Shown: in pieces, positions 3,542 to 8,100 of the stretch | Position numbering within the stretch: position 1 is the first letter of the stretch | Layout of the letters: each line of letters starts with the position of its first letter | IMG/VR virus record: IMGVR_UViG_3300047361_000192 | Coordinates: 1 to 48,863 of that record | DNA from: a virus | Length of the DNA stretch: 48,863 nt | Strand: one strand, 5' to 3' | Notes under the pieces: model-generated | Seen by the model: only the letters and a program-made list of their open reading frames with translations | Told to the model about the DNA's origin: nothing | Database searches by the model: none | Made by a program: the position numbers and the translations under genes

Positions 3542-3684
3542 TAGTTTTCTTTCTTTAGTGTAAATGATCCATCTTTGTTATCTATCCACAATAGTGTGTC
3601 ACCTGGATGCCAATCTAATTTATCCATGAGTTCATCAGGAAATGTAAGCACACCTTCATCATCAACAGGAACAATATATTTCAT
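3541..3684 (-). CDS. AbrB/MazE-like small protein, 47 aa
   Basis: ATG at 3684 to TAA at 3541 translates to MKYIVPVDDEGVLTFPDELM with a second half LDWHPGDTLLWIDNKDGSF. The order strand, turn, P-D-E-L helix, L-x-W-x-x-G-D-x-L strand is the swapped-hairpin pattern of AbrB/SpoVT DNA-binding domains and MazE-type antitoxins. A single domain of this size usually binds DNA as a dimer. It is flanked by TAATG overlaps on both sides. No toxin partner is evident nearby, so a transcriptional or structural role is as likely as an antitoxin role. Confidence 0.65.
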   Translation of the reverse strand: MKYIVPVDDEGVLTFPDELMDKLDWHPGDTLLWIDNKDGSFTLKKEN

Positions 3685-4196
3685 TAAATCCAGTCAGGTT
3701 TGCGGTTCGGTAGTCGTAGGTAGTTGCTAGATACCCATGGTTTAGAAGCAATATACATTTTATATGCTGTCAGTGTATCTATGCTATCATCAAACTTGTA
3801 CTCTTCAGGCATTGCACGAACAAATGGAGTATGATTATCCCATTTAACATAAGGAATGATCTCATCAGCAACAAGGAGAGTCTTGAAACAAGTATGGCAT
3901 TTACCATATCGATTGAAATACTCTTCACATAATGCTATACCATGAGCAAGCAACCATCTAGAGTTCTCTACAGTCTCATTAGCCCATTTAGTACAAGGAT
4001 GATTACGGAATGCACCTTTATCAGTAGCATATGGATTACCATCTGCTTTAGGTATTGTGCCATAACCATGACCCCACTTGTCAGAGCATACAATAGATAG
4101 CATCTGACATGTTTCTAATGGCATCTTGACAATGTGCTTGTCAGGTAAACACTCTGCTGATTCAGTCGGATGTTGACTCGTCACGAAAATATTCAT
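3684..4196 (-). CDS. Conserved phage protein (MNIFV family), 170 aa
   Basis: I start at ATG 4196 (MNIFVTSQHP), because members of this phage family that I recall begin MNIFV and the longer frame to 4226 would overlap the preceding oxygenase further. Signature stretches are DKHIVKMPLETCQML (about residues 19-33), NHPCTKWANETVENSRWL (65-82), and the MPEEYK segment near residue 130. Conserved His, Asp, Lys and Cys positions suggest an enzyme. The family occurs in many phages and has no established activity that I know of. It overlaps the oxygenase end by 35 bases and the AbrB-like start by one base. Confidence 0.65.
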   Translation of the reverse strand: MNIFVTSQHPTESAECLPDKHIVKMPLETCQMLSIVCSDKWGHGYGTIPKADGNPYATDKGAFRNHPCTKWANETVENSRWLLAHGIALCEEYFNRYGKCHTCFKTLLVADEIIPYVKWDNHTPFVRAMPEEYKFDDSIDTLTAYKMYIASKPWVSSNYLRLPNRKPDWI

Positions 4197-4860
4197 CAGG
4201 TAAGTACGCACTCCTATTAATAGCAAGATTAAAACTGAATGTCAACCTCATCTTATTACGATTCTCCTTACCCACCTTTACAGCATGTTTCAGATGTGGT
4301 GGGAACAACAATATATGTCCATCATGAATGTATGATGTCCAGAGTTCTTCGTAATAGTCACAGATCTTACTATCACTATGCTTAAACAATTGCTGTGTAC
4401 GCATGGAAAGATCTGTTTTCTGGAATGTCAACTGTCCTTCACAACAATTGCTTGCAAAGTATATGCCAGACCAGTATGGGTTTAAGTTATCAGGTGACAA
4501 ATGATCGTGTGGTTCTTGACCATGTTCTTCATAGTATGCATTATACCAGAAGCCGTTGTATCGTATGTCAGCTGGCATATTATAGCAAGCAAGGACTTTC
4601 TTGCAATGCTCTAACACATCTCTCTTAACATTCTCCGCAGTCTCATTATCAATATACGGATCATCCTCCTTAATATTAGGGAATGATGTATTGAGAGGAG
4701 TAAACCATACCTCTGGTTTTCTAACTACCCTATCAAATGACTTCCATTCATATGATTCATGCTTTGGGAATTTAGTAACTATCAATGGCGTTGCAAAGAT
4801 AGGTATAGTAGCAATTTCTACTGTCTCACCACTTATATCATTACTAAATTGTTCCATCAT
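4162..4860 (-). CDS. 2OG-Fe(II) oxygenase-like protein, 232 aa
   Basis: This looks like the phage 2-oxoglutarate/Fe(II) oxygenase group with the SGxYY(F) signature (Pfam 2OG-FeII_Oxy_5 type). The centre reads EPHDHLSPDN followed by YWSGIYF, with the first iron ligands at H118/H120. The distal ligand lies in FPPHLKHAV (H192) and the 2-oxoglutarate-binding Arg in RLTFSFN (R205). Such enzymes hydroxylate protein side chains or small molecules using O2 and 2-oxoglutarate. It starts with tandem ATGATG overlapping the upstream stop. It is the most divergent of five oxygenases in this window, and the substrate is unknown. Confidence 0.75.
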   Translation of the reverse strand: MMEQFSNDISGETVEIATIPIFATPLIVTKFPKHESYEWKSFDRVVRKPEVWFTPLNTSFPNIKEDDPYIDNETAENVKRDVLEHCKKVLACYNMPADIRYNGFWYNAYYEEHGQEPHDHLSPDNLNPYWSGIYFASNCCEGQLTFQKTDLSMRTQQLFKHSDSKICDYYEELWTSYIHDGHILLFPPHLKHAVKVGKENRNKMRLTFSFNLAINRSAYLPDEYFRDESTSD

Positions 4861-5324: not shown

Positions 5325-5510
5325 TCAGAATTCACGATTCCTTCTATCATCTAGATACGAAATGATATCAGATCGCCACTCCATTAGTTCATTGTAGCAC
5401 TCTTGGTTGTGAGCACATGCTCGAAGTCTATTGTCAGGCTTCAATACACTCTCATAAAAGAGATTGAATGCATCACGTCGTCTTTGTTGCTTAAGTTCTT
5501 CGTCAGTCAT
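5325..5510 (-). CDS. Hypothetical charged protein, 61 aa
   Basis: The ATG at 5510 overlaps the end of the upstream CP12-like gene by eight bases and gives MTDEELKQQRRRDAFNLFYE. The product is highly charged and helical, with Cys at CAHNQECYNE and an arginine-rich tail (DDRRNREF). A longer frame upstream would overlap the CP12-like gene more and has poor composition. Function unknown; tight linkage to the CP12-like gene is the only context. Confidence 0.55.
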   Translation of the reverse strand: MTDEELKQQRRRDAFNLFYESVLKPDNRLRACAHNQECYNELMEWRSDIISYLDDRRNREF

Positions 5511-5733
5511 CGAATACCTTACACATAGGGGAACCAGGGTGATCATCACAGAACTTATCTAGCACCTTATCTTGGTGACGATTCTGTGGATCAGCAATCT
5601 TACCTTCTGTATTAGGATCCCACTCATCAGGTGAGTGTTCTTCATTACAATGCAGATCTACCTTATACTCATTCCACTTATCATTTGCATCATAAAGTGG
5701 ATCGGAGGGATCTTTTTGGCGTGGTTGTGACAT
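5503..5733 (-). CDS. CP12-like protein (C-terminal GAPDH-binding tail), 76 aa
   Basis: The last residues are FCDDHPGSPMCKVFDD. This matches the C-terminal loop of CP12, where two Cys eight residues apart (here C62 and C71), a Pro four after the first Cys, and a final C-[RK]-x-[YF]-D-D motif form the redox loop that binds glyceraldehyde-3-phosphate dehydrogenase. CP12 shuts down the Calvin cycle by bridging GAPDH and phosphoribulokinase, and cyanophages are known to carry it. The usual N-terminal Cys pair and AWD-VEEL motif are not visible; that half is charged, with one Cys. AAGGAC precedes the ATG. I am fairly sure of the tail, less sure of the function. Confidence 0.65.
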   Translation of the reverse strand: MSQPRQKDPSDPLYDANDKWNEYKVDLHCNEEHSPDEWDPNTEGKIADPQNRHQDKVLDKFCDDHPGSPMCKVFDD

Positions 5734-5736
5734 GAT

Positions 5737-5916
5737 TCAGCAGTCCTTATTTTTGAATTGTTTACGGCATAACTTAACTTCTTTGAGTTCATCCTTAATC
5801 ATCTGATAGGCATCTTCAGGTGATATTTTCTTTGCCATTTCCATAGCAGTGATGATCTCTACTCTTGTTCCAAAGTGCTTGAGTGCTTCTTCAAAACAAT
5901 TTAGTTCTTCGTACAT
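5737..5916 (-). CDS. Conserved-type helical protein, 59 aa
   Basis: ATG at 5916 to TGA at 5737 gives MYEELNCFEEALKHFGTRVE then AMEMAKKISPEDAYQMIKDEL. Three helices with regular hydrophobic spacing are likely, and the composition is typical of a soluble phage protein. It lies three bases upstream of the CP12-like gene in the same direction, overlapping the gene before it by 16 bases. I recall similar MYEEL-FEEAL-HFGTR proteins in cyanophages but know no role. Confidence 0.6.
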   Translation of the reverse strand: MYEELNCFEEALKHFGTRVEIITAMEMAKKISPEDAYQMIKDELKEVKLCRKQFKNKDC

Positions 5917-7221: not shown

Positions 7222-7571
7222 TCGTTTGATGCGATAAGTTGTCCTAGATCATTATACAATGCATAAAACACATACATCTCTGGATTAGCAACAGATGCTT
7301 GACTATCAGGGAAGTTGTCATCAAAGTAATCAAGTACACCCTGATCTAGTCTCTCAAGTTCTACAACCACATACTCTGACTGTTTCATGTCAGCAATAAG
7401 ATCTGACTCTAGCATTTTTGAGTATCGAGCAATAGATGTATTGATAGCATCAACATTGGTGCTATTGTTCCATCCAGTTACTCTAATGAACGCTAGTGGC
7501 ACTCCAGCTGTCATTGCATAACGTCCAAGAATCTCTTGTAGATTGAAGATCTGATAGTTTTGGTTAATCAT
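7218..7571 (-). CDS. Hypothetical protein, 117 aa
   Basis: The product begins MINQNYQIFNLQEILGRYAM and has a strand-helix pattern throughout, with a short acidic motif DYFDDNFPDS near residue 82. It overlaps the oxygenase before it by eight bases and the 328-residue gene after it by four, so the three are probably translated together. No family recognised and no membrane segment. Confidence 0.6.
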   Translation of the reverse strand: MINQNYQIFNLQEILGRYAMTAGVPLAFIRVTGWNNSTNVDAINTSIARYSKMLESDLIADMKQSEYVVVELERLDQGVLDYFDDNFPDSQASVANPEMYVFYALYNDLGQLIASNE

Positions 7572-8100
7572 CGATAAACAGTTTCCAGGCGACAGTGACT
7601 CTTAATCCTTTGAAGTTTCTAGTACACGGTGCAGCACAGTGTGGTATTTTACCAGGAAACAATACTGCTTTGTTTGCTTTTGGGAATACACCATGCACTT
7701 CACCGTTGTTGATGTAGAAATTAGTTTGCCCACCTAGCATTGTATGCCATCTAGGGTTTACATATAACAATAGTGTTCTTCCGTTGTCGGTCTGTGCATC
7801 AACGTGAACTGATCCATCTTGACCGAAAGTATGCCCATTAGCATACGTATGTTGTAGTTTAAATCGTGTGTTTAGTTTCTTCTGTATCTTATTTAGAAGA
7901 TGATCGTAGAAGAATGGATCTTCAGCAAAGTCTATCTTCCAGAATGGTGTGCAACTATGATACTCTGGATGCTCTTTACCTAGCGAGGTGTGACCAAAGG
8001 TCCATCGCGATCCGTGTCCTGTCTTATTCTGAATCTCTTGAAAATCTTCTTCATCGAAGAAATCAAAATATTGTACAACATCATCAGTAGTATATGTCAT
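7564..8100 (-). CDS. 2OG-Fe(II) oxygenase, 178 aa
   Basis: The iron and cosubstrate residues are readable: SVHVDAQTD gives the H99-x-D101 pair, LFPGKIPHCAAP gives the distal H154, and LRVTVAWKL supplies R167 for 2-oxoglutarate. Between them lie LLLYVNPRWHTMLGGQTNFY, the strand that follows the first ligand in prolyl-4-hydroxylase-like enzymes. The whole protein is little more than the double-stranded beta-helix, so it is probably a soluble hydroxylase. It overlaps the next oxygenase gene by four bases. The substrate is unknown; linkage to fibre genes suggests a virion protein. Confidence 0.85.
   Translation of the reverse strand: MTYTTDDVVQYFDFFDEEDFQEIQNKTGHGSRWTFGHTSLGKEHPEYHSCTPFWKIDFAEDPFFYDHLLNKIQKKLNTRFKLQHTYANGHTFGQDGSVHVDAQTDNGRTLLLYVNPRWHTMLGGQTNFYINNGEVHGVFPKANKAVLFPGKIPHCAAPCTRNFKGLRVTVAWKLFIDD

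Follow-up and report, generated by a model that had tools for sequence, protein, structure and literature searches.

Cyanophage CP12 is a standard case of a virus commandeering the carbon metabolism of its host, and it has two targets, either of which could be the important one. In the solved complexes, PRK is bound by a domain of two N-terminal helices, and the C-terminal tail sits in the active site of GAPDH (PMC10253348). The viral DNA stretch analyzed here (48,863 nucleotides, IMG/VR record IMGVR_UViG_3300047361_000192; hereafter the window) carries at positions 5503-5733 a small gene whose product ends like a CP12. The question raised by this locus is whether a phage protein can keep the GAPDH-binding part of CP12 and dispense with the PRK-binding part, a reading first put forward in an initial annotation made from the sequence. 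In the literature searched, we found no earlier account of the loss of the hairpin, the near-exclusive distribution or the Synechococcus chromosomal family described below, part of which may be known.

The gene at 5503-5733 and its family

The gene occupies exactly the interval assigned to it in the initial annotation. Its open reading frame lies on the minus strand, with the ATG at 5733 and the stop codon, which is included in the interval, at 5505-5503; the plus strand of the same interval is interrupted by stops. The open frame, a family match and purifying selection identify it as a gene for a protein of 76 amino acids (MSQPRQKDPSDPLYDANDKWNEYKVDLHCNEEHSPDEWDPNTEGKIADPQNRHQDKVLDKFCDDHPGSPMCKVFDD). 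The C-terminal end (FCDDHPGSPMCKVFDD) displays the CP12-like C-x8-C spacing, a proline and an acidic terminus. Residues 58-76 (LDKFCDDHPGSPMCKVFDD; 5506-5562, minus strand) form a putative CP12-type GAPDH-binding tail, recognized by Pfam, hhalign, the Cys pair and pN/pS, in which Cys62 (codon 5550-5548) and Cys71 (codon 5523-5521) are presumed to be the redox pair. The remaining N-terminal and central part (residues 1-57; 5563-5733, minus strand), set apart by AlphaFold2 modelling and column permutation, is rich in Pro and Asp, and Pfam, PHROG and NCBIfam searches detected no known domain there.

CP12 (PF02672) was the top Pfam match of the window protein (E 3.3e-4), with residues 47-75 aligned to model positions 41-70 and a score of 21.8 bits, just under the gathering score of 22.7 bits. 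The nearest solved chains were the CP12 peptides 3zdf (E 0.14) and 6gfo (E 0.25), both weak matches. When the 943 six-frame open reading frames of the window were searched with a host-CP12 HMM, only this one passed the inclusion threshold, and the tail pattern occurred in 0 of 188,600 residue-shuffled frames.

The PHROG 2603 profile matches the window protein over its full length (residues 1-76, E 7.7e-41); that of PHROG 627, the ordinary cyanophage CP12, reaches residues 48-76 only (E 0.0033). A first scan of IMG/VR recovered relatives on 124 stretches. One close relative, Syn1_235 (90.8% identity), carries in its record the note 'T4-LIKE GC: 63', and the record of another, PSSM2_066, carries the T4-GC 63 note as well. 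Table 3 of Sullivan et al. 2010 (PMC3037559) lists T4-GC 337 and 63 as 'CP12 = carbon metabolic regulator' and gives gene lengths of 231 nt for Syn1 and 267 nt for P-SSM2. These are the exact lengths of Syn1_235 and PSSM2_066, and the assignment of T4-GC 63 to CP12 has thus already been published. The window gene is a real CP12-tail gene in an already tabulated cluster, and the initial description of its product as otherwise unfamiliar does not hold.

This assignment is seldom reflected in databases. Members of the family are mostly labelled 'hypothetical' in GenBank and 'unknown function' in PHROGs, and an NCBIfam search with the family gave no match. Two recent isolates, RB11-B and RN05-S, have the gene annotated as 'carbon metabolic regulator' in GenBank, and the Pfam CP12 cut-off is exceeded by the members from P-SSM2, RB11-B, AG-345-E15 and AG-345-L05. 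A 2023 review recorded CP12 in 31 of 153 cyanophages; since the CP12-tail class is mostly left as hypothetical, such published counts appear to be too low. At one locus (L065:3782-4228), the frame stays open upstream for about 73 residues, and the protein may be fused to the preceding small protein.

As the initial annotation stated, the gene lies among small unknown genes on the same minus strand, and none of the ten annotated neighbours in the window was recognized as a further carbon gene. Upstream, at 5737-5916 (minus strand), a 59-residue protein of the DUF7219 family (PF23856, PHROG 765) is encoded, a neighbour conserved by position that was found within 60 bp at 49 of 106 distinct loci. 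Downstream, at 5325-5510 (minus strand), follows a PHROG 495 gene for 61 residues, identified by sequence and likewise a conserved neighbour (within 60 bp at 51 of the 106 loci); at 14 loci the gene directly downstream encodes thymidylate synthase. The PHROG 495 gene starts inside the CP12-tail gene, its ATG (5510-5508) lying across the last two codons of the latter, which suggests that the two belong to one operon. This overlap could also constrain the final Asp pair in the lineage of the window; ACG-2014f and other members without it have the Asp-Asp end too. DUF7219 was considered as a partner conserved in hosts and was discarded, being present in one of seven host genomes tested and in none of the six with a CP12-tail gene. 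Nearby genes in the window, at 3684-4196, 4162-4860 and 7564-8100, match a pyrimidine dimer DNA glycosylase and two 2OG-Fe(II) oxygenases, as is typical of a cyanomyovirus.

Tail and hairpin compared with ordinary CP12

The tail is of the CP12 type, as initially claimed. Profile-profile comparison by hhalign with ordinary phage CP12 aligned 24 columns (P 7.6e-10), all of them in the tail, and a second comparison covered 28 columns (P 1.2e-7) with no extension beyond it. The family was also examined for members lacking the Cys pair, a finding that had been named at the outset as speaking against the idea, and C-x8-C stands near the C-terminal end in 97 of 97 distinct sequences. Besides the Cys pair, H, P, V and the penultimate D are invariant in the tail. 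Constraint on the protein is tightest here, with pN/pS values of 0.049 for residues 58-74 and 0.065 for residues 58-76, against 0.177 for the whole gene and 0.355 for the centre, which is the least constrained part. A second conserved region is the N-terminal DPNDK-Y-V block (pN/pS 0.12 at residues 14-30).

Within the tail, the residue before the second Cys is usually Met or Gln, a position at which Glu is invariant in the aligned host and phage CP12 sequences. Phe usually takes the place of the aromatic Tyr, and the protein sometimes ends in Val, Leu or, in some hosts, Cys. Such substitutions could alter affinity or redox potential. P-SSM2 and related members retain near-canonical tails (LEIYCDNHPDADECKVYDD); they differ from the window protein in being longer and in this more canonical end (DECKVYDD).

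Upstream of the tail the resemblance fades. Residues 27-53 can be matched weakly and without gaps to host CP12, in a register that beats all shifts from -12 to +12 and also permuted columns (p 0.0019). This register lends weak support to the idea that the whole protein derives from a CP12 that would have lost its helices. A search with phrog_2603 reaches host CP12 over residues 25-76 (E 2.6e-7). Full-length homology beyond the tail was not adopted, the register signal being weak and the profile comparison staying within the tail.

Structure prediction separates the two families. For the window protein, aligned with 43 family members, AlphaFold2 predicted a tail helix at residues 59-64 only (mean pLDDT 57.5), and no helix of four or more residues outside the tail. 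For ordinary phage CP12, it predicted hairpin helices at 4-15 and 22-41 and a tail helix at 56-63 (pLDDT 92.9), from fewer aligned sequences than were available for the window protein; the best PDB match of this ordinary protein was the CP12 chain 6gfo_E, though with a weak E-value (0.03). That no helices are predicted argues only weakly for disorder, and binding could induce a helix. On these models, the distinctive loss in the CP12-tail family is that of the PRK-binding helical hairpin and not that of the N-terminal Cys pair. The initial annotation had stressed the latter. The pair is indeed missing, the single Cys29 being replaced by Ala or Thr in many relatives, but this is no special feature and was set aside as such: all 62 distinct CP12 sequences of the picocyanobacterial type have the C-terminal Cys pair only, and so does ordinary cyanophage CP12. 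The central AWD_VEE motif, absent from every aligned sequence of PHROG 2603, is not recognizable either in the marine host or phage CP12 sequences examined.

Ordinary cyanophage CP12 (PHROG 627, T4-GC 337; for example P-SSM4_018) resembles the CP12-tail protein in size, in being phage-borne, in its C-terminal helix-loop tail with C-x8-C, Pro and an acidic end, and in having the C-terminal Cys pair only; the two are seldom found in the same isolate genome. It differs in the predicted hairpin, in Glu before the second Cys and Tyr in the tail, and in N-terminal and central parts that profile comparison does not align to the CP12-tail family. Marine picocyanobacterial host CP12, which probably corresponds to the CP12-C(M) class of Stanley et al. 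2013, shares the tail and, in the sequences examined, likewise lacks the N-terminal Cys pair and a recognizable AWD_VEE motif. In contrast to the window protein, it keeps the MKSIDEHI...RHLEEEL..L.EYK helices and passes the Pfam CP12 cut-off. Another parallel is the C-terminal extension of plant GapB, a CP12 tail without the PRK-binding half whose disulphide-closed loop and acidic end inhibit GAPDH; it is of plant and not phage origin, measures about 30 residues and is fused to the enzyme that it inhibits. The CP12-CBS fusion proteins of cyanobacteria likewise place a CP12-like part on a different protein. They differ in carrying a CBS domain, and modelling by others suggested that they are unable to bind GAPDH (PMC3906501).

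Distribution in phages and in Synechococcus

All nine complete isolate genomes with the CP12-tail gene (Syn1, S-RIM44, S-CAM1, ACG-2014f, P-SSM2, RB11-B, RN05-S, Sf-FP1 and Sf-CH11) are devoid of ordinary phage CP12, and the tail gene is their only CP12-like match. Two metagenomic contigs of 192 kb and 197 kb show the same pattern, and a third of 231 kb has both genes. Among cyanophage-type records, gp33 was detected in about 466, ordinary CP12 in 362 and the CP12-tail gene in 81 (E 1e-3 or better), but these records are redundant and the nine isolates are related, hence no exact probability is attached to the exclusivity. The CP12-tail gene thus looks like a stand-in for ordinary phage CP12 in most of the phages that carry it. 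Six cyanophage contigs (L009, L015, L023, L030, L033 and L077) contain both genes on the same strand, about 1.0-1.8 kb apart; coexistence is therefore possible and the gene is not purely a replacement. Two records labelled Nonlabens xiamenensis and Euryarchaeota archaeon (L172 and L185) also contain a phage-type CP12 gene and are probably misassigned cyanophage contigs.

The family extends to hosts. A PHROG 2603 search of 400 genomes from the family of Synechococcus sp. SynAce01 returned 27 genomes with strong matches (E down to 4e-27), several of them in single contigs of over 2 Mb and hence on chromosomes. In a phylum-wide sample, 8 of 386 genomes matched, all of them among the same 27. An invention of the gene by phages only is rejected by these chromosomal copies. 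From their family and the relatedness of the genes to those of marine phages, we infer that the carriers are marine Synechococcus. The host proteins are mostly of 64 amino acids (for example MTDITDKYEKFKVPYSTNEKHSADEFDPKENGGLDNPANRHKDKVLDDICDTHPGSPMCKVFDC), with one class ending in Cys (FDC), and two representatives matched no model in Pfam and NCBIfam searches. An ordinary CP12 recognized by Pfam is encoded elsewhere in the genome in 24 of the 25 carriers checked.

Host copies are under purifying selection, with pN/pS values of 0.045 and 0.184 for the whole gene and of 0.020 and 0.071 for the tail. They occur in at least three conserved settings (loci L289-L308, for example L308:7993-8187). 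The neighbours include lptF/G, cytochrome c assembly and DUF309 genes as well as typA- and dnaK-like ones, the last two identified only by inspecting the sequence; in another setting they include gamma-glutamyltranspeptidase and amine-oxidase genes. These look like ordinary host genes, and a prophage origin of the copies is not supported. A tree of 58 sequences, rooted at the midpoint only, places one host clade (100/98) beside the phage sequences. At two further host loci (L311 and L312; G165:C3:567-776 and G178:C5:332-541), the match crosses an in-frame TGA, and these are perhaps decaying copies or genes with a later true start.

A GAPDH-only reading and its alternatives

A CP12-type tail with an invariant Cys pair, on a protein with no predicted PRK-binding hairpin, makes a role confined to GAPDH the natural reading, as the initial annotation proposed. 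We accordingly favor, with a probability of roughly 0.7, that the CP12-tail protein is a minimal GAPDH-only CP12 and a phage auxiliary gene product that would slow the Calvin cycle of the infected cell. We infer that the disulphide forms, that GAPDH is bound and that flux is affected. The conserved tail, made of a helix, the Cys-x8-Cys loop and the acidic end, would be closed by a disulphide, and the acidic end would enter the coenzyme and active-site cleft of host Gap2, as is the case for CP12 and the GapB extension, and lower the NADPH-dependent GAPDH activity. Lacking the N-terminal helical hairpin, the protein would not recruit PRK; GAPDH would be inhibited or sequestered and no GAPDH-CP12-PRK complex built. 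The infected cell would then lose less ATP and NADPH to the Calvin cycle, in favor of nucleotide synthesis. The GapB extension offers a known case of GAPDH being regulated by a CP12 tail that lacks the PRK half (PMC4436894). For phage P-HM2, which has an ordinary CP12, phage cp12 is highly expressed in light and the NADPH/NADP ratio doubles in infection (PMC5082946). The shift of flux from the Calvin cycle to nucleotide synthesis, which the initial annotation had put forward for the window protein, is not particular to it, being a published proposal for cyanophage CP12 in general (PMC5082946, PMC3906501).

An unlikely alternative is a fast-evolving ordinary CP12, whose diverged N-terminal half still folds on PRK so that the ternary complex is still built. 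In its favor are the similar length (76 versus 72-75 amino acids), the register that runs without gaps along about 50 residues of host CP12 and the reach of the phrog_2603 search, and CP12 is described as conditionally disordered (PMC9406205). However, the profile comparison covers the last 24-28 columns only, the counterpart of the long helix contains Pro and Gly (HSPDEWDPNTEGK) with no helix predicted there, and the hairpin of the ordinary phage protein (pLDDT 93) emerged from the smaller alignment; the centre, moreover, is where constraint is weakest.

It is less likely still that the tail serves as a GAPDH-targeting tag, recruiting an N-terminal activity or a different phage protein to GAPDH or, conversely, GAPDH to them. 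CP12-like tails do occur on GapB and CBS-domain proteins (PMC3906501), an interaction between adenylate kinase 3 and GAPDH in Chlamydomonas is reported in a reference cited in PMC9406205, and the DPNDK-Y-V block is conserved; against this, the N-terminal part, of about 57 residues, is without a known domain and predicted to be unstructured. Convergence of the tail, with another job such as redox buffering or a different binding partner, seems very improbable. The strong match is short, at 24 columns, and Glu before the second Cys is substituted, but many positions besides the Cys residues are shared, the P-SSM2 group is near-canonical in its tail and above the Pfam cut-off, and the distribution is complementary to that of ordinary CP12.

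If the GAPDH-only reading applies, a natural family that has kept the GAPDH tail alone and takes the place of ordinary CP12 across entire phage lineages would provide a ready-made separation-of-function test of which target matters. The chances are about even that marine Synechococcus and its phages have in common a second CP12-derived family, for the most part unannotated, which no longer binds PRK and has GAPDH as its only target. The homologues on marine Synechococcus chromosomes suggest that a host regulator has been overlooked.
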